Positions 5,762 through 23,807 of a stretch of DNA of 64,000 bases are shown one piece after another. Position 1 is the stretch's first letter; the number at the start of each line of letters is the position of its first letter. This DNA comes from Melaminivora jejuensis. Lineage in GTDB: Bacteria; Pseudomonadota; Gammaproteobacteria; Burkholderiales; Burkholderiaceae_C. A model generated the notes under the pieces. The model had not been told where the DNA came from, did no database searches, and was given only the letters and a program-made list of their open reading frames with translations. Location: the NCBI RefSeq assembly GCF_017811175.1, contig NZ_JACWIJ010000002.1:1116001-1180000 (forward strand), read 5' to 3'. A program made the position numbers and the translations under genes.

Positions 5762-5825
5762 TGAGGTTGCCCCTGAAAACTGGAGTTCTTAACCCTTGTT
5801 GAAAATAGCGACAAGGAGTTCAGAG

Positions 5826-6158
5826 ATGAGTGACAAGCAGGTGCGTGCGCAGTACACGCGAGAGTTCAAGCAGGAGGCTGTTCGGCAGGTCCGCTCGGGT
5901 CAGGCGATTGCGGTGGTGGCCAAGGTGCTGGGCATTCCCAAAGCGAGCCTGGGCAACTGGGTACGGCTGTCAGCCAGGGGAGAATTGGACGGTGCGGGCG
6001 GTGGAGACAAGAGCATCCAGGTCTCGCCCGAGCAGATGGAGATAGCCCGGTTGCGTGCAGAGAATGCTCGCCTTCGCATGGAGCGCGACATCGCAAAAAA
6101 AGCCGCGGCGTACTTCGCGCAGGACACGCTGCGAGGTACGCCTGGATTCACCAAATGA
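5826..6158 (+). CDS. IS3-family OrfA (HTH, zipper)
   Basis: A 110-residue protein with an N-terminal HTH_Tnp_1 domain (YTREFKQEAVRQVRSGQ) and a C-terminal leucine-zipper-like stretch (EIARLRAENARLRMERDIAKK). It binds the element ends and oligomerises. Its stop overlaps the OrfB start as ATGA, and an A7 slippery run lies near the end, as used in IS3 elements to make the OrfAB fusion transposase. Confidence 0.85.
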   Translation: MSDKQVRAQYTREFKQEAVRQVRSGQAIAVVAKVLGIPKASLGNWVRLSARGELDGAGGGDKSIQVSPEQMEIARLRAENARLRMERDIAKKAAAYFAQDTLRGTPGFTK

Positions 6159-7024
6159 GAAAGCTGTACCCGGTGAGTGTGTCCTGCGGGGTGCTGGAGG
6201 TCAGCGCAAGCGGGTACTTCAACTGGCTACGCCGGCGTGAGTCTGGCCACGGTGGACCTGCCCGGCGTCACAGCGACGAAGCCCTGCTGGCGTACATGCG
6301 CGCCATCCACGCCGAGGTGAAGGGGGAATACGGCTGGCCCCGCATGCACAAGGAACTGCTGGCCCGGGGCATCCGGGTGGGCAAGGAGCGGGTGCGCAAG
6401 CTCATGCAGCAGCACGGCATCAGGGCCAAGACCAAACGCAAGTTCGTGGTGACTACCGACAGCCGCCACAGCCTGCCGGTGGCGCCCGACTTGGTACAGC
6501 GGCGCTTTAACCCCGAGGCGCCCAACCAGCTGTGGAGTGGCGACATCACCTACATCCAAACCGACGAGGGCTGGCTGTACCTGGCTGCGGTCATCGACCT
6601 GTTCAACCGTCAGGTGGTGGGTTGGAGCCTGCAGCCGCACATGCAGGCCAGCCTGGTCAAGGACGCGCTGGCCATGGCGTGGTGGCGCCGCAGGCCACCT
6701 CCTGGACTGATATTCCACAGCGACCGGGGCAGCCAGTATTGCAGCCATGAGTTCCAGGATGCCTTGAAGGACTGGGGCATGCGTTCATCGATGAGCAGAA
6801 AGGGGAACTGCTGGGACAACGCACCGACCGAGAGCTTCTGGGGTCGGCTGAAAACAGCCAGCGTACATGGGTGCAAATTCGCTACCCGTGAGCAGGCCAG
6901 GCAGGCGGTGATGGACTGGATGGCCTTCTACAATCACCGCAGGCTGCATTCGTCGCTGGGCTACCTCAGCCCGATGCAGTACGAGCAGCGCTGGTACGAG
7001 GCACAGCGTAAAAAGGCCGCGTGA
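6155..7024 (+). CDS. IS3-family OrfB transposase (rve integrase core)
   Basis: A 289-residue protein with an N-terminal HTH_21 region (YGWPRMHKELLARG) and an rve DDE core: Asp in LWSGDITYIQT, Asp in FHSDRGSQYCS and Glu in NCWDNAPTESFWGRLK, followed by YNHRRLHSSLGYLSP. All catalytic positions are present. It supplies catalysis when fused to OrfA by frameshifting. Confidence 0.9.
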   Translation: MRKLYPVSVSCGVLEVSASGYFNWLRRRESGHGGPARRHSDEALLAYMRAIHAEVKGEYGWPRMHKELLARGIRVGKERVRKLMQQHGIRAKTKRKFVVTTDSRHSLPVAPDLVQRRFNPEAPNQLWSGDITYIQTDEGWLYLAAVIDLFNRQVVGWSLQPHMQASLVKDALAMAWWRRRPPPGLIFHSDRGSQYCSHEFQDALKDWGMRSSMSRKGNCWDNAPTESFWGRLKTASVHGCKFATREQARQAVMDWMAFYNHRRLHSSLGYLSPMQYEQRWYEAQRKKAA

Positions 7025-7063: not shown

Positions 7064-7345
7064 GTTTGGGATTTTGGGTATTGGTGGTGGAACACGGAAC
7101 CGAACCCGCGTCCGTAATCCGAGCCAGATAGTAACGCCTCCGCCTTGGGGGCGTGAATTCGACGAGTTGGCCACCCGCGCCTGAGGCCGTGCGCAAGCGC
7201 GTCGTACTCAGCTTGACTGAGGCAATCCATCCCACCCCTACCAAGTAGAAGACAAACTTTCCGAGCTCGGTCGCTTTTGGTCGCCAGTTGGAAAATTCTG
7301 CACTATCCTGTCGTCCTTTACCAATCATCCGACTGGCCCCATTCC
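7064..7345. other. Intergenic leader before the 7.3-18.5 kb operon
   Basis: No convincing gene. On the minus strand it contains GGGTTCGGTTCC followed by CCACCA, faintly like the 3' end of a tRNA or tmRNA, but the T-arm does not pair well. The operon promoter should lie in the last 100 bases; I see no clear -35/-10 pair. Confidence 0.4.
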
Positions 7346-7549
7346 ATGCCCAAAAACACCAGCGAAAGCGGAATCCTGACGATCAAGGAAGTCGCCGAGT
7401 ACCTGAAGGTCACGGAGCGGACGATCTACCGACTCGCGGCAGCCAAGAAAATACCGGCCTTCAAGGTCGGCGGGACATGGCGCTTCCGGGCAACGGACAT
7501 CGACGGCTGGATAGCCGACCAGTCGAAGAAGGCGGAGGGAACCGATTGA
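7346..7549 (+). CDS. Excisionase-family HTH DNA-binding protein
   Basis: A 67-residue protein of the HTH_17/excisionase (MerR-like winged helix) family: ILTIKEVAEYLKVTERTIYRL, then KKIPAFKVGGTWRFRATDIDGWI. Such proteins bind DNA as small regulators or recombination directionality factors. Its stop overlaps the start of the SNF2 helicase gene, so the two are translationally coupled. It is therefore probably the operon's transcriptional regulator or a DNA-targeting subunit rather than a phage excisionase. No integrase is adjacent. Confidence 0.75.
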   Translation: MPKNTSESGILTIKEVAEYLKVTERTIYRLAAAKKIPAFKVGGTWRFRATDIDGWIADQSKKAEGTD

Positions 7550-10484
7550 TCTCCGCCTACCACGCCAAGTACTACGCCCACGAGCTGACGCGGCGGCACG
7601 CCGCCGATGGCGTTGATCGCCTCTCCCAATCGCTGTTCGATGCCAGCGTCGATTTGAACCCGCATCAGATCGAGGCGGCGCTGTTCGCCCTTCGGAACCC
7701 ATTGCAGGAAGGCGTACTGCTGGCTGACGAGGTGGGGCTAGGCAAGACCATCGAAGCCGCGCTGGTGGTTTGCCAATACTGGGCTGAGCGCCGTCGTCGG
7801 CTACTGGTCATATGCCCGGCTAGCCTGCGCAAGCAATGGGCGCAGGAGCTGCACGACAAGTTCGCCGTGCCCACCACCGTGGTGGATGCCGTTTCTCTGC
7901 GCAAGCAGTCCGCTGGCGACATGCTCGCCACCCTGCAACGGCAAGTCGGCAAGGCAGTCGTCATCATGTCCTACCAGTTTGCCGCCAAGCTGGAGGCCGA
8001 GCTGCGCGCCGTGCCTTGGGATGTGGTGGTCATCGACGAAGCGCACAAGCTGCGCAACGCGCACCGGGCCAGCAACCGTACCGGGCAGGCGCTCAAGCGC
8101 GCGCTGCAAGGCCGCAAGAAGCTGCTGCTCACCGCCACGCCGCTGCAGAACTCGCTGATGGAGCTGTACGGCCTGTCGACGCTGATCGACGAGCACCTGT
8201 TCGGCGACGAAACTGCCTTCCGCAAGCAGTTCATGAACAGCGGGACAGGCCTTGACGAACTGCGTGAGCGTCTTGCCAGCTTCGCCAAACGCACACTGCG
8301 CCGTGACGTGCTGGAGTACATCAAGTACACCGAGCGTAAGGCTCTCACCCAGCCGTTCAACCCCACCGACGACGAGCAGGCGCTGTACGAGCGCATCTCG
8401 GCCTTTCTGCAAAAGGAAGACTCCTACGCCCTGCCCAAGCAGCAGCGCCACCTCACAGCACTGATCTTGCGCAAGCTGCTGGCCTCCAGTTCGCACGCCG
8501 TCGCTGCCACGTTGGTCACCATCCGCGAGCGCCTGCGGGGCTTGCTCACAGCAGACAAAGCGGAAGACGATGGCAGCCAGCTGGTCGAACAGCTCATTGC
8601 CGAGGACGACTTGGAGCAGGACTACCTGGAAGAGGAAGCCAGCGAGGCAGAAGAAAACGCCGAAGTCCCGACGCCTGCGCCAGCCGAAGAAGGTAAGCCG
8701 GGCGCGGCAAAAGATGCCCATGCCGTCCGCGCCGCCATCACCGCCGAGATCGCGGAGCTGACTGCGTTCGTCGATGCCGCCCAAGCCCTGAAAACCGACA
8801 CCAAAGCACAGGCGTTACTCAAGGCGCTCAACCTGGGCTTCGGCAAGATGGCCGAGCTACGTGCGCCACGCAAGGCCATCATCTTCACAGAGTCCAAGCG
8901 CACGCAGGAGTACCTGCACCGCTTCCTCTCAGCCAACGGCCACGCGGGCAAGTTGGTGTTGTTCAGTGGCACCAACACCCACGAGGAATCGACCGCCATC
9001 TACCAGCGCTGGCTGGAAGAGTACAAAGGCACGGATCGCGTCACCGGCTCGCCGCAGGTAGATCGCCGCACCGCGCTGATCGACCACTTCCGCAAGGACG
9101 ACGGCACCGGTGCGGAAATCATGATCGCCACCGAAGCGGCTGCCGAAGGCGTCAACCTGCAGTTCTGCGCGCTGATCATCAACTACGACCTGCCGTGGAA
9201 CCCGCAGCGCGTTGAGCAGCGCATTGGCCGCTGCCACCGCTACGGTCAGCGTTTCGACGTGGTGGTCATCAACTTCTTGAACACCCGCAACCAGGCCGAC
9301 CAGCGTGTGCTGGAGCTGCTCACCGAAAAATTCAAGCTGTTCTCTGGGGTGTTTGGCGCAAGCGATGAAGTGCTGGGCCGCATCGAGGGGGGCCTCGATT
9401 TTGAAAAACGCATCCTCCAAATCTACGACACCTGCCGCCAGCCCGCGCAGATCGAAGCCGCCTTTAATGCCCTGCAGGCGGAGCTAGAAGAATCCATAGC
9501 CGACCGCATCAAAGACACCCAGTCCCAGCTGCTGGAGCATTTTGACGAAGACGTTCACGACCGGCTCAAGCTGCGATTGGACGAGGCTGAAGCGCGGCTC
9601 GACAAACTGGGGCGCTGGTTCTGGGGTGTTACCCGCTATGCGCTCAATGACCGTGCGCGCTTCGACGAACAGTCCTACGCGTTCTCTCTGAGCACGCCGC
9701 CAACTGGAGTCGCACAACTAGCCCCCCTGGCCGCTATCAGCTCATTCGCGGTGCGGCGCAGCCGGACATGCTGGCGCACGCCTACCGCCTCAGCCACCCG
9801 CTGGGGGAATGGAGCATTGATGCCAGCCTGAACGCGGCCACGCCCGTCGCCACATTGAAGCTCGACTATGGCAAATACGGTGCGCGTGTCTCCGTCATCG
9901 AGAGACTGCGCGGCAAGTCCGGCTGGCTGACGCTGGCCAGGCTGGAAGTCACCGCATTCGAGACCACTGAGGCGCTGCTGTTCTCTGGCATCACTGACGA
10001 TGGTCAGGTGCTGGATCAGGAAGCCTGCGAAAAGCTGATGGCCATTCCAGCAGCAGGCAAACCCACTCCTTTGAGCACCACCGTGCCCGAGGCACTGCTG
10101 GCCAACAGCCAGCGCGCGGTCGCCGCCACCATTGCCCAGGTACTGGAAGCCAACCAGCGCCTCTTCAATGAAGAACGGGACAAACTGGAACGTTGGGCAG
10201 ACGACAAGCTGCTGGCCGCAGAGGAAGCCTTGAAGAACACCAAGGCGCGCATCGCACAGTTGAAGCGTGACGCCCGCAAGGCTGCCACATTGCAGGAGCA
10301 AGACGGCATCCAGCGCGAGCTATCTGAGCTGGAGCGCAAGCAACGCCGCCTGCGGCAGGAAATTTTCGCCGTCGAGGACGAGATCATTGCCAAGCGCGAC
10401 GAATTGATTGCCTCGCTCCAGCAGCGCCTGCAAGAAAAAACAAGCAATGAGACCCTGTTCAGCGTGCGCTGGCAGGTGCTCTAA
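7546..10484 (+). CDS. SNF2-type helicase/ATPase, first large subunit of the operon
   Basis: About 979 residues once one C is restored to the C6 run at 9722-9727; as written the frame ends near 9831 and continues from about 9730 in another frame. Start is a TTG overlapping the upstream stop codon. Motifs: I LADEVGLGKTIEAAL (about 60), II VIDEAHKLRN (about 163), III LLTATPLQNS, V EAAAEGVNL and VI QRIGRCHRYGQ (about 558). An acidic insert lies at 340-400 and a C-terminal coiled coil at 800-940. These are SF2 translocases of the RapA/SNF2 type found in DISARM-like and R-M-like defence loci. It probably moves on DNA to help discriminate or cut foreign DNA. The restored length is an exact codon multiple. 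Confidence 0.8.
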
Positions 10485-10517
10485 CCCGGTTCAAGTATCC
10501 GGAGATTAGGCCAAACC

Positions 10518-13500
10518 ATGACCAACAAACAGAATCCAAAATTCCAGGAGCTCGTCGCCAAGCTGCGCGAGATCTTCCAGATCGACCGCCCGGAACTCGA
10601 CTTCGGCATCTACCGCATCCTCAACGCCCGCGCGGGCGAGATCAACGACTACCTGCAAAACCGGCTGGCTGAGAAGGTGCAGGCCGCCCTGTCCGCTGGC
10701 AGCGCCGCCAGCGCCCAGCAGTTGCAGACCGATCTGGACGAAGCGATCAAACAGGCACAGGCGCTGGGCGCGAACCCCGACGACCTGCCCAAGGTCAAGG
10801 ATTTACGCGCCCGGCTGAAGGATGCGACCGCAGGCAGCAGCGAACACGAGAACGCAGTGTTCTCGCACCTGCTGGCCTTTTTCTCCCGCTACTACGAGCA
10901 AGGCGACTTCATCAGCCAGCGCCGTTACAAGGGCGACACCTACGCCATCCCCTACGCGGGCGAAGAGGTGATGCTGCACTGGGCCAACAAGGATCAGTAC
11001 TACACCAAGAGCGGCGAGAACTTCAGCAACTACAGCTTCAAGCTGGAAGACGGTCGCACGGTGCATTTCCGCCTCGCCGCTGCGGACACCGCCAAGGACA
11101 ACCGCAAGGACAACGACAAGGAGCGCCGCTTTGTCCTGGTGACGGCCAAGACCGTCACCCGTGTGGATGAAAACGGTGACGAGTACGAGGAAGAGCTCGT
11201 GCCAGTGGAGGAAGCATCGGGCAGTGACGGCAATCAGGAGCTGATCATCCGCTTCGAGTATGCCGCCCAGCCCAAAGGCACCAAGCAGGAGGCGCTGGTC
11301 ACCAAGGCCGTCGAAACCATTCTGGACGATGCGGCGGTCAAGGCCCGCTGGCTGGCCTTGGGCAACCGCGCGCCTACCGAGAAGAATCCGCAGCGCACTC
11401 TGCTGGAAAAGCACCTCTCCGACTACACCACCAAAAACACGGCGGACTACTTCATCCACAAGGATCTGGGTGGTTTCCTCCGGCGCGAGCTGGACTTCTA
11501 CATCAAGAACGAAGTCATGCATCTGGATGATGTGCAGAACGCGGGCGCGTTCGCGGACATCGAAAAGAACCTGCGCATGATTCAGTGCCTGCGCGCCATC
11601 GCGCTGGAGCTGATCGCTTTCTTGGCCCAGTTGGAAGACTTCCAGAAGAAGCTGTGGCTGAAAAAGAAGTTCGTTGTCTCCAGTCACTACTGCATCACGC
11701 TGGATCGGGTGCCGGAAGCGCTGTGGCCGGAAGTGGTAGCGAACGCGCAGCAATGGGCGCGGTGGAAACAGCTGGGCGTGTGGGATGGCGATGCGCCGGG
11801 GACGGTGGAGGACTTGAAGGCTGCGCCGTTTCGTATGCTGGATACCGCGCTGTTCACGGATGATTTCAAGCAGCGACTTCTGGCTAACATTGATGATATT
11901 GATGCTGGCCTTGGAGGCACCGTTATCAACGCCGATAACTTCCAGGCGCTTGCTCTATTGAGCAATCGGATGGCTGATGAAGTCGATTTCGTTTACATCG
12001 ATCCTCCATACAACGCAACCACGAGTGAAATAGCCTACAAGAATGGCTTTAAGCATGGTTCTTGGATCACGCTCATGGAAAATCGGCTGTCTCGGGCAAG
12101 AGCGCTAATGCGCGCTGACGCGCCAGTTTGTGTTGCAATCGATGAGAACGAGAGGGAGCACCTGTCGCTGCTGATGAAAGACCTGTTCTCAGACGGGGAC
12201 ATAACCCAAATCAGCGTGATCCACAATCCGCGTGGCATTCAGGGCAACGGGTTCTCTGTAACAAACGAATCAGCTATTTTCTTCAGGCCTGAAGGCAAGC
12301 TGTTGGGAAAGCGAAGTCTTAGTGATTCGAAGTCCAAGCCGCTGATGAAAACGGGCAGCGAATCAGAGCGGCACACGGCAAAGAACTGCTTCTATCCAAT
12401 TTTCGTTAAGAACGGTGCAGTAGTCGGGTTCGGAGACGTTCCTGCTGATGATTTTCATCCGCGCAGTGCGTGCACTGAACTTGAAAATGGAGTTCTGGCG
12501 GTGTGGCCGATCTCATCGACAGATGGATTGGAGCGTAAGTGGCGTTACGCACGACAATCGGTCGATGCCATTATCGATAATCTTGAAGTTAAGACTGGAA
12601 GAAATGGGCTGCCCTCCATAAATCTCGCAAAGGACAAGGAGTCCTACAGGACTGTTTGGAGCGACGCCGAGTTCAATGCGGCCGAGTATGGAAGCACCCT
12701 GCTAAAGAATATCGTTCCTGGCAATGGATTTTCGTTTCCAAAGTCACTGTATACAGTTCGGCATGCGATCGTCGCAGCGAATTGTCGATCCAATGGGGTG
12801 ATTTTGGACTTCTTTGCAGGGTCTGGAACTACCGCGCATGCGGTAATTTCTTTGAATAGAGAAGAGGAGCTTGATCTTTCGTATTTGATGGTTGAGCAAG
12901 GCGATTACTTTGACACTGTCTTGAAACCCAGACTTCAGAAAATCATTTTTTCCGCAGATTGGTCTGAGGGAAAGGCGACTAATCCAGAGACTGGTATCTC
13001 TCACTGCTTCAGGGTCCTTAAGCTGGAAAGCTACGAAGACACCCTGAACAACCTGCAACTGCGTCGTACGTCCGCGCAGGGCGATCTGCTGAACAGCCTG
13101 CCGCAGCAGGCCAAGGACGACTACCTGCTCAACTACCTGCTGGACGTGGAGAGCCGTGGCTCGTTGCTGTCGGTGGAAGACTTCAAGAAGCCCTTCGACT
13201 ACACCCTCAACGTGGCCGTGGATTCGGCGGGCGCGTTCGAGCCGCGCAAGATCGATCTGGTCGAGACCTTCAATTTTCTGATCGGACTGCGCGTCAAGCA
13301 CATCGACACGGAACCGCAGCGCGGCTTCGTCACCGTCACCGGCACCTTGCCCAGCGGCGAAAGCTGTCTCGTGCTCTGGCGTGACTGCGACGTACTGGAC
13401 TACGAAGGCGTCACCAAGCTCTGCGACAAGCTGGCCATCAACCCGGCGGACAACGAGTTCGACGTGGTCTACATCAACGGCGACCACAACATTCCCACCG

Positions 13501-13603
13501 TGCTGACGCAGACGGCCGAGGAAGGGGGGCCACCCGCGTGCTCAAGCTGCGCCAGATCGAGCCGGAGTTTCTGGAGCGCATGTTCTCGGTGGAGGACATC
13601 TGA
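10518..13603 (+). CDS. Type III-like site-specific DNA adenine methyltransferase
   Basis: About 1028 residues after adding one G to the G6 run at 13524-13529; the corrected frame ends in a TGA overlapping the next ATG. The catalytic motif DPPY is at about residue 495 and the AdoMet-binding FAGSGTT at about 765, the order seen in beta-class/type III Mod enzymes. The first 480 residues are a long extension with no domain I recognise, perhaps target recognition or complex assembly. It should methylate adenine in host sites to protect self DNA. It lies 33 bp after the SNF2 gene and is coupled to the helicase-nuclease. As written, the C-terminus is replaced by about 57 out-of-frame codons. Confidence 0.82.
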
Positions 13604-16600
13604 TGGCACGGCCACGCAAGACCCCTGTCGCCGGTTCGGGCGCAAGCGGCGCAGCCGGTTCCACTCGCGGCGGCAAGAAGCGCAGCTTCCATCAGGAATT
13701 GGTGCTCAACCGCTGGGTGCTGGGCTTCTTTCAGGGCGGCACGCTGGCGGCACTCAAGATGCGCTTGGGCGATGACCGCTTCGAGGGCATCGACGAGGAC
13801 GGCCAGACCAAGTTCTTCCATGAACTGATCCGAGGCCTGTTCGACCCGAACAAGGTGCCCGAGGCCGATCTGCGGCGCTACGACTTGAACGTCGTCGCGC
13901 ACTGGCAGGCCATCACCGCCCAGCGCAATAAGCTGGAAGGCCACGAACTGCAGATGAAGTACTTCCAGTACCTCTCGCTGCTGTTCACCGAGCTGTATCT
14001 GGACTGGTACTTCAACCACCGTCAGGACTTGCTCGATGGCCTGAACGAGGAAATGGTTCGCTACCGCGCCGAGACGGGCGCGGAACCGTTCCGCGATTTC
14101 GAGGCGGATGATCTGAACAAGATCGCCTTCTGGAACGCCACCGGCAGCGGCAAGACCCTGCTGCTGCACGTCAACATCCGCCAGTACCTGCACTACTTCC
14201 AGGCGGGGCGCAGCGATCACTTTCCCGACAAGATCATCCTGCTCACGCCCAACGAAGGGTTGAGCCGTCAGCATCTGGAGGAGCTGCACCTGTCCGGCTT
14301 CGGGTTCTCGCAGTTCTTCAACAAAGCCCAGTCGCCCGCGCGCGGCACCATCGAAATCATCGACATCAACAAGCTGGGCGATGAGATGGGCGACAAGACC
14401 GTCGCCGTGGATGCCTTCGAGGGCAACAACCTGGTGCTGGTGGACGAAGGCCACCGTGGTACGGGCACGGCGGCGGGCGCGTGGATGGCGCGGCGCGATG
14501 CGCTGGTGCGCGGTGGTTTTGCCTTCGAGTACTCGGCCACCTTTGGGCAGGCGGTGGCCAAGGGCATGATCGTGGCGGCGGCGGAAGAAGACATCCAGAA
14601 GAAGCGCGCCAAGATGTTGTTCAACACCACCAGCCTGCGCAACCTGGACGACGGACAGAAGGCGCAACTCGTGCTGACCGCCGAGGACAAGCGCCGCGCG
14701 CGCATCACGGCCACGCGTGAGATCTACGCCAAGTGCATCTTGTTCGACTACTCGTACAAGTTCTTCTACGAGGATGGCTACGGCAAGGAATCGCTGATCC
14801 TCAATATGAGCGGCGACGCCTACGAACAGGCCGACAACGCCGCCAAATACTTCACCGCGTGCTTGCTGGCGTTCTATCAGCAGTTGTTTCTTTGGAGCAC
14901 GCACCGCGACAAGCTGACTGACTTCAACATCGAAAAGCCGCTGTGGGTATTCGTGGGCAACACGGTGTCAGGCGAGGAGTCGGACATCCTGGAAGTGGTG
15001 AACTTCCTCGCGGCCTTCCTCAACAACGACACTCAGACCAAGACGTGGCTGGCCGACCTGATTGCCGACCGAGCGCAGATTCTGGATGCAAAGGGCAACA
15101 ATATCTTCAGCGGGCGCTTCACGCCCTTGATGGGATTTTCCGGGAAGGTGGATGAACTCTACGCAGACATCGTGCTGCGCGTTTTCAACGCCTCAGCGAA
15201 GCAACGGCTGAAACTGGTCAACATCAAGAGCAGCAAGGGCGAGCTGGCACTGCGCGTGGGCGACGCCGAACCCTTCGGCCTCATCAACATCGGCGACGAT
15301 GCGGGCTTCTTCGGGATGGCGGAGGACGTGGAGGCCTTCGATAGCGAACGCGACGACTTCGGCGGCGCGCTGTTCGGCACGCTGAACAACAAGGACAGCC
15401 GCCTCAACGTGCTGATCGGCTCGCGCAAATTCACGGAAGGCTGGAGCAGTTGGCGCGTGTCCACGATGGGTCTGCTGAACATGGGCCAGGGTGAAGGCTC
15501 GCAGATCATCCAGTTGTTCGGACGCGGGGTGCGCCTCAAGGGCAAGGGCTTCTCGCTCAAGCGCACATTGCCGCAGGACCGACCCAAGGGCGTGCATCTG
15601 GACAAGCTGGAGGCGCTGAACATCTTCGGCGTGCGCGCCAGCTACATGGCCGCGTTCAAAGACTACCTGCGCGAGGAAGGCATCACGCCCAGTGACGAAG
15701 TGCTGGAGCTTGACTTCCCAACGCGGGCAAACCTGCCCAAAGGCAAACTCAAGACCTTGGCGCTGAAGGATGGCTACAAGGACAACCAGAAACTTGGGTT
15801 CAAGCGCACGCACTTCCCGTGGCTGTACGAAATACCCACGCAGTTCCAGGGCAAGATCAAGCCCCCTCATGTGGTACTCGACCTGTACCCGCGTGTCGAA
15901 GCGCTGTCCAGCAAGGACAAGGGCACAACCCCCACGACGGAAGCCCGCAACAAGGGCAAGCTGAATCAGACGCTGTTCCCGGCTTTCAATTGGGATCGCA
16001 TCTATCTGGCGTTGCAGGATTACAAGTTGCAGCGCAGCTGGAGCAACCTGCGGTTGGAACGGCAGAAGCTGATCGACTTCTGTGCGGGCACGCAGGATTG
16101 GTACACGCTGTTCATCCCGGTGGCGGAACTGAACGTGACGACCTTCGCCGACATCCGCAAGCAGGAAGACATCCTGCTTCGACTGCTGACGGACTACACC
16201 GACCGCTTCTACAAGGCCCTGAAGACGGGCTACGAGGGCCAGTTCTACGACATCACCCACATCGATGAAGATCACGGGTCGATGCTCAAGCTGTACCAGT
16301 TCGAGATCGAGAACAGCGACGACGGTCTGGAGTATCAGGCGAAGCTGGAAGTGCTGAAGAAGCTGGTGGCGGACGGCAAGATCGGAGAAGCCAGCAAATG
16401 GAACGCACCACACATGGTCGCCATCAGCTTCGACCGCCACTTGTACTACCCGCTACTGGCGTTGGAGGACAAGGATGCAGTGCCGCTGAAACTGCGTCCG
16501 CTGGCCTTTGACGCGCCCAGCGAATGGGATTTTGTCCGCGATCTGGAGGCGTTCTACAACTCCAGCGAAGGCAAGGAAGCGATTGGCCCGCGCAGTCTGT

Positions 16601-16998
16601 ACCTGTTGCGCAATGCGGATCGGGAAGAGAAAGGTCTGGGCTTCGCGTTGGCGGGCAACTTCTATCCTGACTTCCTGCTGTGGCTGGTGGACGATGCCAC
16701 AGGTGAACAATGGCTGACCTTCGTCGATCCGAAGGGTCTGCGCAACCTGGATCTAACCCACCCCAAGTTGGGCCTCTACAAGGAGGTCAAGACGCTGGAG
16801 GCCACGCTGAACAAGCAGGCCAAGACCGACGAGCCACGCCTGGTGCTCAACGCCTTTGTGTTATCGCCGACCAAGTTCTCTGACCTGCTGAACGTCGGTG
16901 ATCCTGCCAAGAAGCAGGATCTGGAAGACCGGCACGTCCTGTTCATGGAGGACGGGCGGGACAAGTATCTAGGCGAGATGTTCTCGCGAATCATCTGA
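13603..16998 (+). CDS. DEAD/DEAH helicase-endonuclease, type III Res-like
   Basis: An 1131-residue protein. A Lys/Arg-rich N-terminal tail is followed by an SF2 helicase core: Walker A NATGSGKTLL (about 180), motif II LVDEGHRG (about 280) and motif VI QLFGRGVRLKG (about 640). Near the C-terminus, YPDFLLWL and FVDPKG (about 1020-1042) form a PD-(D/E)XK nuclease motif, as in type III Res subunits. Its ATG overlaps the methyltransferase stop by one base, so the two form a restriction-modification couple. It is longer than classic Res (about 900-1000 residues). Probable role: DNA translocation and cleavage of unmodified DNA. Confidence 0.82.
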   Translation: MARPRKTPVAGSGASGAAGSTRGGKKRSFHQELVLNRWVLGFFQGGTLAALKMRLGDDRFEGIDEDGQTKFFHELIRGLFDPNKVPEADLRRYDLNVVAHWQAITAQRNKLEGHELQMKYFQYLSLLFTELYLDWYFNHRQDLLDGLNEEMVRYRAETGAEPFRDFEADDLNKIAFWNATGSGKTLLLHVNIRQYLHYFQAGRSDHFPDKIILLTPNEGLSRQHLEELHLSGFGFSQFFNKAQSPARGTIEIIDINKLGDEMGDKTVAVDAFEGNNLVLVDEGHRGTGTAAGAWMARRDALVRGGFAFEYSATFGQAVAKGMIVAAAEEDIQKKRAKMLFNTTSLRNLDDGQKAQLVLTAEDKRRARITATREIYAKCILFDYSYKFFYEDGYGKESLILNMSGDAYEQADNAAKYFTACLLAFYQQLFLWSTHRDKLTDFNIEKPLWVFVGNTVSGEESDILEVVNFLAAFLNNDTQTKTWLADLIADRAQILDAKGNNIFSGRFTPLMGFSGKVDELYADIVLRVFNASAKQRLKLVNIKSSKGELALRVGDAEPFGLINIGDDAGFFGMAEDVEAFDSERDDFGGALFGTLNNKDSRLNVLIGSRKFTEGWSSWRVSTMGLLNMGQGEGSQIIQLFGRGVRLKGKGFSLKRTLPQDRPKGVHLDKLEALNIFGVRASYMAAFKDYLREEGITPSDEVLELDFPTRANLPKGKLKTLALKDGYKDNQKLGFKRTHFPWLYEIPTQFQGKIKPPHVVLDLYPRVEALSSKDKGTTPTTEARNKGKLNQTLFPAFNWDRIYLALQDYKLQRSWSNLRLERQKLIDFCAGTQDWYTLFIPVAELNVTTFADIRKQEDILLRLLTDYTDRFYKALKTGYEGQFYDITHIDEDHGSMLKLYQFEIENSDDGLEYQAKLEVLKKLVADGKIGEASKWNAPHMVAISFDRHLYYPLLALEDKDAVPLKLRPLAFDAPSEWDFVRDLEAFYNSSEGKEAIGPRSLYLLRNADREEKGLGFALAGNFYPDFLLWLVDDATGEQWLTFVDPKGLRNLDLTHPKLGLYKEVKTLEATLNKQAKTDEPRLVLNAFVLSPTKFSDLLNVGDPAKKQDLEDRHVLFMEDGRDKYLGEMFSRII

Positions 16999-17023
16999 TG
17001 GCCCATACATTTAAGGAGAAGCT

Positions 17024-17698
17024 ATGTTCCATACCTTTGGAACCCCGGAGCCACTCAGATCAATCGGGCAGGAATCCATCGATATGGCTGAGGCCAAACG
17101 TCAGGTGGAGATTGCCGTCTTGGACGACAACCCGTTCGCACCCAAGGAGGCGCTGCTGCATCACAAATTTCGCATCACAGAGCTGGGGCCTGACATCAGG
17201 TCTCTGGATCAGGTTGCTACGTTTCCAATCATCGTGTGCGATGTGGCGGGTGTTGGGCGCGCTTTCGGCAGCAGCTTGGAGGGGGCGCACCTTGTCAACG
17301 AGATTCGCAAGGCCTATCCAGACAAGTTTCTCATCGGCTATACAGGGCAGACCCACAGCGTTGCCACCACTAATGCTCTGACCGCTGCTGACAGGCGCAT
17401 GGCGAAGGACGAGAGCATTGAGGCTTGGATAAAAAATCTCGAGGCTGGCATGAGTGAGGTGATGAATCCTCGGAACCGATGGGTCCGGATGCGCAGGGCT
17501 TTGCTCGAGCGTGGCATCGAGCTCTTTGACGTCTTCAAGTTGGAGCAAGCATTCATCAAGGCGGTCAGGCAGGGCAAGCCGGACGTGCTGGCCAACGAAG
17601 CACGCAATCTTGGTATTGCGCAAGAGATTAAGGATTTGGTCATCAAATTCTCGGCGACGGCGGTCGCAGCCCTGATTGGCGCAAGTCTCGGTATCTGA
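17024..17698 (+). CDS. Receiver-domain (response-regulator-like) protein
   Basis: A 224-residue protein with a strong SD (AAGGAG) and 25 bp from the upstream stop. Residues 26-130 look like a REC domain with all key positions: Asp34/Asp35 (VLDDNPF), phospho-acceptor Asp73 (IIVCDVAG), Thr107 (IGYTG) and Lys128 (RMAKDE). No DNA-binding output domain follows. Residues 135-224 are helical and end in a short hydrophobic stretch (ATAVAALIGASLGI) that could be a membrane anchor or packing helix. Its stop abuts the kinase start. Inference: it receives phosphate from the next gene product and controls the restriction complex by protein contact. Confidence 0.65.
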   Translation: MFHTFGTPEPLRSIGQESIDMAEAKRQVEIAVLDDNPFAPKEALLHHKFRITELGPDIRSLDQVATFPIIVCDVAGVGRAFGSSLEGAHLVNEIRKAYPDKFLIGYTGQTHSVATTNALTAADRRMAKDESIEAWIKNLEAGMSEVMNPRNRWVRMRRALLERGIELFDVFKLEQAFIKAVRQGKPDVLANEARNLGIAQEIKDLVIKFSATAVAALIGASLGI

Positions 17699-18475
17699 AT
17701 GCGTTACGACAAGCAGAACCGGCGGCTGGATCGCCTACAAGCCGAGATCGAGGACTTGAGGATGCAGAACACCCGCCTCGTAGCCGAAGCCCAGGGTATC
17801 CAGGCAATCCTGGACAGTACCCTCCACGAAGTGCGCAGGTTCAGCGCTCAACTGACCAAGTTTTCTGAGCGGCTCAGTAGGGAAACAGAAGGTCAGGCGC
17901 AACTTAACCAAACTGCGCTGTCAGTCTTCTATACGGCGGGCATGATCTCGTCGAGATTGGCTTACACCGACATTGAGCTCAACCCCCGCGCACTCGAAAG
18001 TCAAACAACAGTTCGGTCGGGAATCTACAAAAAATTTGACAAGGCCCGGCGAATCCTCGCAGAGGAGGCGCGCGATCACGGAGTGACGATTCGGCTTGAG
18101 GGCGAGTCAAGAATCGAGATTGATGCTCTGCCAGTTTTCGAACTGCTGCCGTTCGTTCTGCTTGAGAACGGAGTCAAGTACTCACCGAGAGGCCAGTCTG
18201 TGACTGTCAGTTTTGAAACCATCAGGGGGTGTCAGTTTGTCACCGTCACGTCCGTCGGCCCAGCTGTTGCAGATGCAGAGCTGCCGCACCTTTTCGAGAA
18301 GGGGTATCGCGGCGCGCAGACAGCAAGCTTGCCGGGTGAAGGGCTTGGGTTATTCTTGGCCAAGCAGGTCTGCAGGTTTCACGACGCTCAGATACGTGCT
18401 GAGATCGGACGCCAAAATCTGTATCAGATGGGCGGCACATCATACTCAGAGTTCCGAATCGTTCTACAGTTTTGA
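17699..18475 (+). CDS. Soluble histidine kinase-like protein (HATPase_c)
   Basis: A 258-residue protein starting directly after the receiver gene. Residues 5-60 form a coiled coil with a candidate H-box, LHEVRRF (His43). The C-terminal half is a GHKL ATPase: N-box LLENGVKYSP (Glu156/Asn157), a G1-like LPHLFEKGYRG and G2 GEGLGLFLAK (213-222). It has no transmembrane segment and no recognisable sensor domain, so it should be cytoplasmic and sense an internal cue or a partner. Pairing with the receiver protein inside an R-M-like operon is unusual. A protein-disassembly GHKL ATPase is an alternative reading. Confidence 0.65.
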   Translation: MRYDKQNRRLDRLQAEIEDLRMQNTRLVAEAQGIQAILDSTLHEVRRFSAQLTKFSERLSRETEGQAQLNQTALSVFYTAGMISSRLAYTDIELNPRALESQTTVRSGIYKKFDKARRILAEEARDHGVTIRLEGESRIEIDALPVFELLPFVLLENGVKYSPRGQSVTVSFETIRGCQFVTVTSVGPAVADAELPHLFEKGYRGAQTASLPGEGLGLFLAKQVCRFHDAQIRAEIGRQNLYQMGGTSYSEFRIVLQF

Positions 18476-18647: not shown

Positions 18648-19163
18648 CTACCTCACAGTTGCCGCCATCTCACTTATCCACACCTGCAACGCCCTCAGTT
18701 GCTCGGCGTTTTCGTGGCAGGACTGGTAGTTGCCTGCGACGGTTCCGGCGACGGCAGAGAGCGCAATGCCTGCGGCGGCCGCATCAGCATCTCCGGCGGG
18801 TTCGGGCAGTTCACCGGCGGCGGCAGCGTCGTGCAGGCGCACAAGGCCACGGTTGATAGTGCAAGCAGCATCGGCTTGAACGGGCACATAGACGGGAACC
18901 TCCTTGATGATGGTGTCACCCTTCTCACGGACGACGCGGACGCGGTCGACGTACTCGGTGACGACCTTGACGGTGGCCTCGGCCTGCCGCTTCTGGACGA
19001 CGGCGGCCTGCAGGGTTTGTTGTTGGATGGCGGCATCCCACTGGGCTTGAACGTGGCCCGCGCCTTTCACCCAGCCGAAGCTGACCAGGGCAGCGGCGAG
19101 CAGGACGAGGGCCAGCCAGCGGTACGGCCAAGGAATCAGGCTTATGGCACGTCCCCAATGCAC
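18648..19163 (-). CDS. Phage Rz-like inner-membrane spanin, left copy
   Basis: About 171 residues from a GTG at 19163. It has one N-terminal transmembrane helix ([17 protein letters not shown]), then a long helical periplasmic region, as in i-spanins that help disrupt the outer membrane in phage lysis. An Rz1-type lipoprotein gene is embedded in another frame, the classic Rz/Rz1 arrangement. The usual ATG before SLIPWPYRW is absent, so the start is uncertain. It lies in a 552-bp direct repeat and is probably a stranded prophage remnant. Its extreme C-terminus differs from the right copy. Confidence 0.65.
18695..18871 (-). CDS. Rz1-like outer-membrane spanin lipoprotein, left copy
   Basis: A 58-residue ORF nested in the Rz gene in a different frame. 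It starts [13 protein letters not shown], a short lipoprotein signal with a lipobox Cys, followed by the Pro-rich [13 protein letters not shown] typical of Rz1. Nesting plus lipobox makes the assignment good despite its size. Confidence 0.65.
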   Translation of the reverse strand: MLLALSTVALCACTTLPPPVNCPNPPEMLMRPPQALRSLPSPEPSQATTSPATKTPSN

Positions 19164-19787: not shown

Positions 19788-22013
19788 TCACTGCACGCGA
19801 ACCGGCAACGTCACCTTCGGCTGGATGGGCACCAGCGTCTTCGCGTAAGCGCGCAGAATCTCGTTGTAGAGGTCTGCATGCTTGGGCGCTTCAACCGTGA
19901 TGATCAGCGCGTAGCGAATTTTCTCGGCGTTGGTCGTCGGCCCGCCAGCTTCTCGGGCGTTGTAGTGGATATCGAACACCGGGTTGTCGAGACTGCGACC
20001 CAGCATGGGTTTGTTGCCGTGCAAAACAGTCTCCCACTTGCCGAGGTCAGAGCGGCGCTCTTCCTCCGTGGCGTACTTCTTCATGCTGAAGAAGCCCGTT
20101 GCGGTGGCGCTGGTCTTGCCGTCCTTGACCTTCTTGTCGCTGGGGCGGAACACAACCTCCAGGCCAGCGCGCGTGTAGGCCACAGCATCTTGCGGGTCTG
20201 TCGGCGATGCATAGCAAAAGGTTGCCTTCAAACGAATCTTGCCTTGCAGGCCGCCTACAGGCAGGGGGAGCGTTGCGCGCAGGTACTTGCCCGGCTTCAA
20301 CTCACCCTGATAGACCACTCGTGCCACGCCGGTCGGGCAGGCGATGACCTCCATCAGGTCTTCCGGAACCTTGCCCCAACCTACTTCGAGCTTGTCGTGG
20401 GTGGAAGAATCGGCGGCGTGAACGAGCAAGGCCTTGATGGCCAGCGGCGTCAAATCCGCGCCGAGAATCGCCCGAACACCGACGGCATTACGCAACAAGT
20501 ATGGCGACGCAAAGCTGGTGCCCAACTGCGGGATCAGCGTCGGCTTCGCGCCAGCGCCCAGCACATGGAAGTACTTGGAGCTGGCGGCGTCTCCACCAAA
20601 TGCCATGAGGTCAGGCTTCACAACGCCCGGACTGCGCCCAGGCCCAACGGCGCTATAGGCGGCACGCGACCACGTCGCATCCACGTTGTCGGCAGCGCCC
20701 ACGGACAAGGCGTTGACGCAGTCCGAGGGCACCTGCACGCGGGCATTACCCACCGAGCGATCCATTTCGCCGTTGTTGCCAACGGCGACGGTCATCAAGG
20801 TATCACCGTCGCTGAGCAGGTCATCGATCACCGATGTCCACGCATGAACGTCGGTGTCCTCAATCGGTAGATCCGGCCCCAGGCTGAGATTGAGGAATTG
20901 GTATTGGCGCGAGAGCAGAACTTCTTCAACCAATCCCAGCGTGCGGTACAGCTCCAGTGGATCTTCCGATTCAGTCTCGCGATCCAGCACGCGCAGGTGG
21001 TCAACGTAGGAGTATGGGCGTGCCGCAGTACTGTTCGGTGTTATTGGGCCGAACAGGAAGGCCGAGGTCACGCCGAGGCCGTGCTCCAAGCCGCTCGGGT
21101 CATCCGCCGCGTTTTCATCCAGTGCTCGGTAGGTTCGCAACCACGGAGCGATGCTGTGCTGTTCGGGTAGACCGCCGTCGAGGATGGCCACCTTGGGCTC
21201 GGACGACAGGGGTTGCTCTGTCGGCAGGCTGCACGCTACCATCACGCCCGCAGAGCGTTGCACCGGACGCATGCCACGCAGTTGCGGCATGGGACGAATC
21301 ACGCGCACAAGGGTGAACTCAGCCAAGCGCTTGATGTTGTGGTGCGTACCCTCGGCTGGAAGGAACCACAGGTTGCCCGCGCTGAACGCCAAGTCGGTAT
21401 GGATCGTCACACCAACATCGGCTGCGTACTTGGCGAACGCGCGTTGCACGAACTGGTCGTTGTCACCGGGAAGCAGATGAATACCAACCTCGAAGAAGCG
21501 ATCTTTTGCCTTGCCTAGCGAGACGATGCGATCCTTGGGCTCAAAGGCAGAAAACCGCTCGATATGCGACAGATCCTTGGCTTCATTCGACCCTTCGCCC
21601 AGTCGCCCGGCCCAGTCTTTCAACTGGCGGAAGGCTTGGCGCTGGCCCACCACGAAAAGCTCCGTGGTGGCCGATTCACGCGGCGGCCCCTTCCTTGACC
21701 AGCCTTCGGGCGTGAGTTTGACGACCCTGCTGCCGACCGAATAGAGGCTCGCGCTCCGCAGCATGGCTGTCGGGAAGAAGGAGCGCGCGATGTAACTCGG
21801 ATTGAGCGTGAGACGAGCCACGCCCAAATCTCCCGGACAGGCTTTATCGGGCACGCTATCGAGGTTCGCCGCAACTTCGGCGAACTGCGGCATCAGTCGG
21901 CTCCTCGCTTGCTGCAACGTGTAGACCTCAGCCTTGTCCATGCCGCGTTTGGGGCCCTTGATCTCGTGGGTCAGCAACTCGCCGCGCCCGATCAGAAAGT
22001 TGGTCTGGCTCAT
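19788..22013 (-). CDS. ietS: Subtilisin-like serine protease of an IetAS defence pair
   Basis: A 741-residue S8 family peptidase without signal peptide, so cytoplasmic. The N-terminal 270 residues are an uncharacterised extension. The triad is visible: Asp in VAILDGG (about 280), His in LEHGLGVTSA and Ser in GTSFASPYLL (about 510), with oxyanion Asn in VAVGNNG. Its start overlaps the upstream AAA+ ATPase stop (ATGA), so the two are co-translated. AAA ATPase plus subtilase is the known anti-phage system IetAS; assignment rests on this pairing. The ATPase probably controls protease activation on infection. Confidence 0.8.
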   Translation of the reverse strand: MSQTNFLIGRGELLTHEIKGPKRGMDKAEVYTLQQARSRLMPQFAEVAANLDSVPDKACPGDLGVARLTLNPSYIARSFFPTAMLRSASLYSVGSRVVKLTPEGWSRKGPPRESATTELFVVGQRQAFRQLKDWAGRLGEGSNEAKDLSHIERFSAFEPKDRIVSLGKAKDRFFEVGIHLLPGDNDQFVQRAFAKYAADVGVTIHTDLAFSAGNLWFLPAEGTHHNIKRLAEFTLVRVIRPMPQLRGMRPVQRSAGVMVACSLPTEQPLSSEPKVAILDGGLPEQHSIAPWLRTYRALDENAADDPSGLEHGLGVTSAFLFGPITPNSTAARPYSYVDHLRVLDRETESEDPLELYRTLGLVEEVLLSRQYQFLNLSLGPDLPIEDTDVHAWTSVIDDLLSDGDTLMTVAVGNNGEMDRSVGNARVQVPSDCVNALSVGAADNVDATWSRAAYSAVGPGRSPGVVKPDLMAFGGDAASSKYFHVLGAGAKPTLIPQLGTSFASPYLLRNAVGVRAILGADLTPLAIKALLVHAADSSTHDKLEVGWGKVPEDLMEVIACPTGVARVVYQGELKPGKYLRATLPLPVGGLQGKIRLKATFCYASPTDPQDAVAYTRAGLEVVFRPSDKKVKDGKTSATATGFFSMKKYATEEERRSDLGKWETVLHGNKPMLGRSLDNPVFDIHYNAREAGGPTTNAEKIRYALIITVEAPKHADLYNEILRAYAKTLVPIQPKVTLPVRVQ

Positions 22014-23167
22014 GCCTCACGTCTCCGTTTCTTGGGAACCACGGTCGAACTGTCGGTGGTGTATTTGCGAATGGTGTCCCGGCTCACGCCGGTGATGTCC
22101 GAGATACTGTGCTGAGACAGGCGCGTCTGCTTTGCCAGCAACACTGCCATGTCGATGCGGCCTTGCCGATCCAGAGAGAGGGCGCGTGCCTTGATGAATT
22201 CTTCGATCAGGTCGGCATCCGGCGTTGTCCCCAACGCCACAGCACGACGAAAGCGCTGTATCTCGCGCTCGATGTCGCTAAAGGACTGTCCGCGAAACGC
22301 GAAAGCCAGAATCTCGATCCAGCGGCCGAACAAGGCAAAGTCCGGCCCCAAGAAGCGCTTGATGGCTTCTTTGACCGCCGCCGCCGCTGGCACCTTGAAT
22401 TCCACAACCAGATCGAACCGTCGCCACAGCGCTGGATCGATCAACTCCGGGTGATTGGTGGCGGCCAGCAGCAATCCCGTTGCTGGCCACTCGTCGACCT
22501 CTTGCAAGATCACGGTCACCAGCCGCTTGAGTTCACCGATGTCCGTGTCATCGCTGCGGCGTTTGGCGATTGCATCGATCTCGTCCAGCAGCAGGACACA
22601 GGGACTACGTTTGGCGAAATCCAGCGCCGCGCGCAGGTTGCTGCCACTGCGTCCCAGCAGGCTGCTCATCACGGCAGTCAGATCGAGCACGTACAACGGC
22701 ACGCCCAGTTGAGCCGCCAACCAGCGAGCCGTCAGCGTCTTGCCCACCCCGGGTTGACCAACAAAGATGGCAGAGCGGGTCGGGGTCAAACCAAGCGTGG
22801 CGAGACGCGCTGCCTGCTTGCGCTCCTGGATCAATTGCCCAAGGGACTCTTCCAGCTCGGCAGACAACAATGGAGCCTTACGATCCGGTGAGTCCTTGAA
22901 GACCTTCAGCAGCGACAGACGCGACTCGTCATCCACCGGCAGCACCTGCTCCGGCAGCGAAGGCGATGTCATTTTGCGCAGCGGTGCCCCTGCCCGATGC
23001 GGCTTGGCCCGAAGGAACAGATCCACCTGTTCGGCCAACTCCGGCTCAGTGCCTCGGTACTTCCTGACCAGCCTCGCAGCAAACAGGCGCACGTCCTCCG
23101 CCTGCTCAGCAAGCGCCAGTCGGACAACCTGGGCTAAATCAGCCTTCAAACCAGTCAACTCGCCCAT
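22010..23167 (-). CDS. ietA: AAA+ ATPase of an IetAS defence pair
   Basis: A 385-residue cytoplasmic AAA+ protein: Walker A GQPGVGKT, Walker B VLLLDEIDAI, sensor-1 AATNHPE and arginine-finger-like ALWRRFD. The N-terminal 120 residues are helical and may bind substrate or protease. The C-terminus ends in a helix-turn-helix (LSQHSISDITGVSRDTIRKY), so it may also bind DNA and autoregulate. It is first in a two-gene operon; the ATG at 23167 follows a palindrome 30 bp upstream. Family members act as anti-phage sensors or effectors together with the subtilase. Confidence 0.8.
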   Translation of the reverse strand: MGELTGLKADLAQVVRLALAEQAEDVRLFAARLVRKYRGTEPELAEQVDLFLRAKPHRAGAPLRKMTSPSLPEQVLPVDDESRLSLLKVFKDSPDRKAPLLSAELEESLGQLIQERKQAARLATLGLTPTRSAIFVGQPGVGKTLTARWLAAQLGVPLYVLDLTAVMSSLLGRSGSNLRAALDFAKRSPCVLLLDEIDAIAKRRSDDTDIGELKRLVTVILQEVDEWPATGLLLAATNHPELIDPALWRRFDLVVEFKVPAAAAVKEAIKRFLGPDFALFGRWIEILAFAFRGQSFSDIEREIQRFRRAVALGTTPDADLIEEFIKARALSLDRQGRIDMAVLLAKQTRLSQHSISDITGVSRDTIRKYTTDSSTVVPKKRRREA

Positions 23168-23291: not shown

Positions 23292-23807
23292 CTACTTGAT
23301 GGCGGATGCCATCTCCCTGATCCACGTCTGCAACGCCCTCAACTGCTCGGCGTTCTCGTGGCAGGTCTGGTAGTTGGCAGCAACGGTTCCGGCGACGGCA
23401 GAGAGCGCAATGCCTGCGGCGGCCGCATCAGCATCTCCGGCGGGTTCGGGCAGTTCACCGGCGGCGGCAGCGTCGTGCAGGCGCACAAGGCCACGGTTGA
23501 TAGTGCAAGCAGCATCGGCTTGAACGGGCACATAGACGGGAACCTCCTTGATGATGGTGTCACCCTTCTCACGGACGACGCGGACGCGGTCGACGTACTC
23601 GGTGACGACCTTGACGGTGGCCTCGGCCTGCCGCTTCTGGACGACGGCGGCCTGCAGGGTTTGTTGTTGGATGGCGGCATCCCACTGGGCTTGAACGTGG
23701 CCCGCGCCTTTCACCCAGCCGAAGCTGACCAGGGCAGCGGCGAGCAGGACGAGGGCCAGCCAGCGGTACGGCCAAGGAATCAGGCTTATGGCACGTCCCC
23801 AATGCAC
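23292..23807 (-). CDS. Phage Rz-like spanin, right copy
   Basis: Nearly the same protein as the copy at 18648, except for the last 35 or so residues, which differ at several positions (ending MASAIK). One N-terminal transmembrane helix and a helical periplasmic part. The GTG start is uncertain as for the other copy. An Rz1 gene is nested in it. It is not needed for defence and marks an old lysis-cassette insertion site. Confidence 0.65.
   Translation of the reverse strand: MHWGRAISLIPWPYRWLALVLLAAALVSFGWVKGAGHVQAQWDAAIQQQTLQAAVVQKRQAEATVKVVTEYVDRVRVVREKGDTIIKEVPVYVPVQADAACTINRGLVRLHDAAAAGELPEPAGDADAAAAGIALSAVAGTVAANYQTCHENAEQLRALQTWIREMASAIK
23339..23515 (-). CDS. Rz1-like spanin lipoprotein, right copy
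   Basis: A 58-residue nested ORF with the same lipobox (ALCAC) and Pro-rich segment as the left copy; the last 14 residues differ. Confidence 0.6.
   Translation of the reverse strand: MLLALSTVALCACTTLPPPVNCPNPPEMLMRPPQALRSLPSPEPLLPTTRPATRTPSS

Follow-up and report, generated by a model that had tools for sequence, protein, structure and literature searches.

Within a 64,000-nucleotide stretch of the Melaminivora jejuensis genome (NCBI RefSeq assembly GCF_017811175.1, positions 1116001-1180000 of the 3.7 Mb contig NZ_JACWIJ010000002.1; hereafter the window), six genes encode, in this order, a helix-turn-helix (HTH) protein, a SNF2 motor, a methylase (Mod), a helicase-nuclease (Res), a receiver protein (REC) and a histidine kinase (KIN). 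The first four form a widespread and mobile restriction-modification (R-M) core of type III-like character, and the last two are a two-gene phospho-signalling cassette. On balance, the locus is best read as a mobile four-gene restriction core which carries, in the slot after Res, a separable REC-KIN cassette that is most likely an autonomous accessory, perhaps anti-phage, module.

The separability of the two units was seen from both sides. Thirty Res loci were scanned with REC and KIN profiles, and the sole positive was a Thauera locus (L007). REC-KIN was absent from the 27 other Res loci with readable downstream DNA, a set from which L039 (no downstream DNA) and L098 (646 bases) were excluded. 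In Thauera, two contigs share Res between them, with the division at residue 468, the front lying with HTH-SNF2-Mod and the back with REC-KIN; because of this split, a single six-gene operon in Thauera is what we infer. The REC-KIN loci outside the window numbered 23, namely 11 on GTDB contigs, five plus four new ones from IMG/VR, one plasmid and two further genomes (L061, L093). The 19 IMG/VR matches to KIN included ten general kinases without REC, which were dropped, and five contigs already in the set. KIN stands directly after REC in all 22 outside loci that have both genes (gaps of -25 to 16 bases), and at L017 the contig end was reached without KIN. Among the 23, the Thauera locus carries this Res and one other (L069) a different Mod-Res pair; at the remaining 21, BLAST at 1e-4 found nothing related to this Mod or Res, other kinds of R-M not having been searched systematically. 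Less than 1 kb of upstream DNA was visible at L016 and L019, and a weak SNF2 match lies about 5.4 kb from KIN at L011. The initial annotation had asked whether the receiver and kinase genes accompany the methylase and helicase genes in distant species, and had named homologous operons almost always without the last two genes, or a pair found mainly in other contexts, as outcomes that would speak against its model. Both outcomes are largely what was observed. A fixed six-gene system is rejected on account of the Res loci without REC-KIN together with the REC-KIN loci without this R-M. Because each unit occurs mostly without the other in the collected loci, an autonomous module is likelier than a gate on Res.

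The DNA around Res was compared among relatives. In L036, one of the close relatives (94-95% over Res), nothing recognised follows Res. In two further relatives of this closeness, both prophage contigs, a GmrSD-type gene stands after Res, beside spanin DNA (L037:5915-7750 and L038:5525-7357). The candidate defence pair HEC-01A/B lies between Mod and Res on the Aeromonas plasmid pE31A (L044:7200-8977), and in Thauera (L092) two open reading frames (ORFs) of no assigned family have this position. The R-M core looks like one with exchangeable accessory slots. The restriction operon is of interest as a docking site for swappable modules (REC-KIN, GmrSD, HEC-01), with the recombination junction likely inside Res.

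Type III R-M systems cleave DNA in an ATP-dependent manner at head-to-head unmethylated sites. The assignment of the core to a type III-like system with a SNF2 motor, made initially from the letters alone, was borne out by profile searches (Table 1). Mod matches the EcoP15I Mod structure 4zcf with an E value of 4.2e-18, which places it in the type III methylase family, and Res, which adjoins Mod, scores as the helicase-nuclease of type III R-M; for Res, a phmmer search of the PDB gave no relative. As in EcoP15I-like systems, Mod has DPPY followed by FAGSGTT, and Res has GSGKT, a DEGH box and a PD...DPK nuclease-like motif. Unlike in EcoP15I, Mod is longer than the 644 amino acids of EcoP15I Mod and is preceded by the HTH and SNF2 genes. 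Relatives of Res were found in 27 plasmid records (E up to 1e-50), eight of which were examined and belong to Proteobacteria, Bacteroidota, Bacillota, Thermotogota and Halobacteria. These records count as occurrences of the R-M without REC-KIN; KIN was found in 0 of 72,556 plasmid records at 1e-20. Res is present in 9 of 369 genomes of the class, its own included (E up to 1e-60), and, at E up to 1e-100, in 6 of 101 genomes of the family that includes Thauera.

The SNF2 motor resembles DrmD of DISARM. Its scores, obtained with the frame-broken front part only, are 629.7 bits against a cut-off of 950 (NF038318) and 286.2 against 610 (NF038317). A DrmA model of PADLOC matches the same protein at 149.8 bits, below DrmD at 626.5, and no separate DrmA, DrmB or DrmC appeared among the matches listed for seven window frames (for SNF2, the best 25 of 50). 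The HTH protein, probably the regulator of the operon, just passes the MAD1 cut-off of MADS (81.7 bits against 80), and no mad model beyond MAD1 was among the matches listed for the same frames. On the frames and matches covered here, membership in DISARM or MADS is not supported.

The signalling residues named in the initial annotation (Asp34, Asp35, Asp73, Thr107 and Lys128 of the receiver, and the kinase motif LHEVRRF with His43) are all present. Their conservation was counted over the 23 outside REC-KIN loci and the window. Asp34, Asp35 and Asp73 are found in 24 of 24 REC proteins, Thr or Ser at 107 in 24 of 24 and Lys128 in 23 of 24; His43 is found in 22 of 23 KIN proteins (Ser in L022) and Asn157 in all 21 that could be read. 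REC-KIN has both the phosphotransfer residues and the folds of a two-component pair, and the initial description of a genuine receiver with a kinase lacking a recognised sensor domain, with all phosphotransfer residues, was right. Between the window and Thauera, dN/dS (nonsynonymous over synonymous divergence) is low for both genes, 0.060/1.04 for REC and 0.104/1.23 for KIN. The family of sensor-less kinase-receiver pairs is conserved and, judged by the divergence between the window and Thauera, under purifying selection. The VIA rows of REC span mostly residues 23-151 and barely reach the four C-terminal helices. A second class of KIN has 119-145 residues before the histidine (L015, L016, L021, L052, L061, L063, L067-L069, L093). 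Pfam recognises no sensor domain in these residues; an unknown sensor domain in the N-terminal stretch of this long form is possible.

Among catalogued systems, the pair can be set beside the PADLOC candidate PDC-M43, in which A is a receiver and B a kinase. REC scores 48.1 bits to PDC-M43A and KIN 44.7 bits to PDC-M43B, and for four other REC-KIN pairs the scores are 53-58 and 45-61 bits, respectively. Profile coverage is partial, a general kinase model gives KIN a better score (57.8 bits), and no curated cut-off is given for the candidate. PDC-M43 is not named in the literature searched. The excerpts of that literature (PMC12839542, PMC11249213, PMC10952713, PMC12255303 and PMC13092281 among it) hold no description of this combination of R-M core and REC-KIN; a figure legend in PMC13092281 has HATPase and REC among the domains of predicted systems. 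The locus combines a known R-M type with a signalling pair distantly like the candidate PDC-M43, probably through a module swap. A kinase and a receiver are also found in the defensive two-component system Detocs, which the excerpted text of PMC11249213 presents as a family of three genes whose best-known form has a PNP effector. Membership in Detocs was rejected: REC-KIN has two genes, and across the window and 22 outside loci no third family recurs at more than two.

To what extent Res and REC-KIN are linked elsewhere was assessed from the sizes of the longest contigs in the match lists, comprising the best 120 of 7830 Res matches and the best 120 of 175 KIN matches. For 4 of the 120 listed Res relatives, the longest contig is equal in size to that of a REC or KIN cluster (14698 for REC and KIN; 11537, 83770 and 4661 for KIN). 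When sizes were shifted by 1-60 either way, the mean was 0.53 and the maximum 3, and none of the 120 shifts reached 4. As a positive control, the REC and KIN lists have 46 sizes in common. With part of the lists, the shifted control gave a mean of 0.39 and a maximum of 2, and 34 sizes were common to REC and KIN. These counts indicate, indirectly, that the linkage recurs beyond one case, the metagenome cases being read from equal contig sizes only. The Res C-terminus of the window and Thauera has the strict tail DGRDKYL..MF, which is present in 7 of the 120 listed Res. Size-linked Res make up 3 of these 7 carriers and 1 of the 113 others (Fisher p 0.0005); with a looser tail pattern the numbers are 3 of 12 and 1 of 108 (p 0.003). 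The tail was not found in the viral-contig scan.

The body of the window Res has a different affinity from its end. The seven tail carriers are 90-97% identical over the Res body to their nearest fellow and 87-91% to P0321, which is without the strict tail. For the body of the window Res, identity is 95.7% with P0229, also without the tail, and does not exceed 86.3% with any tail carrier. Along its length, the window Res stays with P0229 as far as about residue 1020; from 1021 on (around position 16663), the tail clade is the nearer one. In stretches from that residue, matches to P0281 and P0229 number 30 and 27 of 30, 27 and 22 of 30, 20 and 19 of 20, and 17 and 15 of 18; of the last 13 residues, P0281 matches 10 and P0229 matches 3. 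Thauera Res switches later than the window Res, in its last residues. Over the last few hundred bases of Res, DNA identity drops from 94-99% to 41-49% for L036/L037 and is 84-86% for Thauera. The window Res looks like a mosaic whose part beyond about residue 1021 is closer to the tail clade, so that a joint arrival of the cassette and the Res 3′ end is probable. Most simply, REC-KIN would have been brought in with this 3′ end through recombination inside Res.

In the favoured reading, REC-KIN and the Res 3′ end would have moved in together by homologous recombination inside Res, and the cassette would ride on the operon transcript. Mod-Res-SNF2 would restrict unmethylated DNA. KIN, by way of its N-terminal helix or of a partner, would sense a cue linked to infection, autophosphorylate on His43 and hand the phosphate on to Asp73 in REC, whose helical tail would then act on a protein partner. 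A module of its own is likelier than a restriction subunit because REC-KIN occurs in viral contigs, by a retron-type reverse transcriptase (L009) and away from recognised defence genes. Several observations weigh against this reading. The mosaic signal is modest, since over residues 1021-1118 the window is matched about equally well by P0324, P0348 and the tail clade, and only the last 13 Res residues single out that clade. Linkage to REC-KIN is commoner in the tail clade than among other Res, and in L069 REC-KIN also stands behind another Mod-Res pair; either could reflect a functional tie. Among 81 neighbours (chosen from 142 listed ORFs and one longer list entry) scanned at 1e-10, no defence model was matched by more than two, and in the comparison of the window with 22 outside loci (all but L093) no family besides REC and KIN is shared by more than two. 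With no recurring neighbour family there is therefore no effector in sight, and because few neighbours outside this R-M are recognised defence genes, the support for a defence role of REC-KIN is weak.

The model of the initial annotation, that the kinase and receiver gate the nuclease, with phosphorylated REC binding Res, Mod or SNF2 and licensing cleavage, appears improbable. It would agree with the retention of the set in Thauera at low dN/dS, with the association of the Res tail type and REC-KIN linkage, and with the L069 array (L069:3856-10753, from IMG/VR), where a Mod and a ResIII gene other than those of the window stand before REC-KIN as a separate restriction-receiver-kinase unit. It is opposed by the many Res and REC-KIN loci that have one unit without the other. 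The tail is moreover the DNA adjoining REC, and plain linkage accounts for the covariation. A stronger form of the idea, in which the Res tail GRDKYLxxMFxRI and REC-KIN coevolved in one clade, phospho-REC docks on the tail to arm or disarm cleavage, and gated and ungated cores interconvert by recombination at the Res 3′ end, is quite improbable. Because natural Res genes about 95% alike occur both with the cassette and without it, gating could be tested directly. We also regard it as unlikely that REC-KIN is non-defensive regulatory cargo of prophages or islands which tunes host or prophage genes through a protein partner. The 9 of 23 loci that come from IMG/VR fit such cargo, as do the phage terminase or tail genes near REC-KIN in three of them (L021, L022 and L067, with few neighbours scanned), the scarcity of recognised defence neighbours and the lack of a recurring effector gene; the occurrence of REC-KIN behind Mod-Res operons of two kinds and next to a reverse transcriptase of retron type, and the resemblance of REC to the candidate defence family PDC-M43A, do not. 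No REC-KIN-like DNA was found in E. coli genomes; one phage record has a REC match. The pair points to an uncharacterised sensor-less kinase-receiver family and may be a minimal infection-signalling unit.

The coordinates agree with the gene order and spacings first described. HTH and SNF2 overlap by 4 bases, SNF2 and Mod are separated by 33 bases and Res and REC by 25, and REC and KIN by 0; the Res start overlaps the end of the Mod tail frame by 1 base. In the Res-REC gap no promoter-like or terminator-like site was found, which is weak evidence. What the picture of six genes running head to tail had overlooked is that SNF2 and Mod contain one frame break each. The SNF2 frame switches between 9711 and 9726 (tblastn with the Aeromonas homologue); the front ORF, in the frame of 7546, ends at 9831 and the tail ORF spans 9768-10484. 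The Mod frame switches at about 13514-13529, the last 29 residues lying in another frame while the long ORF continues to 13775. Both genes are single-frame in the relatives from Aeromonas (L044), Thauera (L092) and G1165 (L094). The R-M core could accordingly be dead in this strain, with selection maybe left only on REC-KIN, a doubtful proposition that is compatible with the other readings. The two breaks favour it, but they lie at homopolymers of six C or six G, typical spots of assembly error, and Res, REC and KIN are all open.

Table 1. Coordinates of the six-gene locus and of flanking features in the window.
Feature	Position	Strand	Description and matches
HTH protein	7346..7549	+	67 amino acids, excisionase/MAD1-like; HTH_17 68.7 bits; NF047737 MAD1 81.7 bits
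SNF2 motor gene	7546..10484	+	DrmD-like; SNF2-rel_dom and Helicase_C; NF038318 629.7 bits; frame-broken
Mod	10518..13603	+	Type III-like N6-adenine methylase; MTase_III PDLC03646 1142 bits; N6_N4_Mtase; EcoP15I Mod (PDB)
Res	13603..16998	+	Type III-like helicase-nuclease, 1131 amino acids, intact; REase_III PDLC03654 1620 bits (PADLOC)
REC	17024..17698	+	Receiver domain (about residues 26-152) and four C-terminal helices; no recognised output domain
KIN	17699..18475	+	Histidine kinase; long helix with His43, second helix, HATPase domain; no recognised sensor domain
Spanin segment, first copy	18664..18963	-	Phage Rz-like; phrog_4952; Rz-like spanin models weakly
Spanin segment, second copy	23308-23607		96% identical to first copy
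IetAS-type pair	19788-23167	-	Subtilase IetS and AAA ATPase IetA
Transposase pair	5796-7024
Unannotated stretch	7073-7173		100 bases

The first spanin segment bounds the cassette downstream, and the second copy follows 4644 bases on. An IetAS-type defence pair lies between both copies. Spanin-homologous DNA was also found after Res-GmrSD in L037, with phage tail genes, and in L038, with terminase and portal genes. The locus has the appearance of a defence hotspot that holds remnants of prophage lysis genes. Upstream, the unannotated stretch found no Rfam support as a tRNA or tmRNA attachment site; it matches four plasmid records at 88.2%. The transposase pair, presumably of IS3 type, lies just upstream of the operon.

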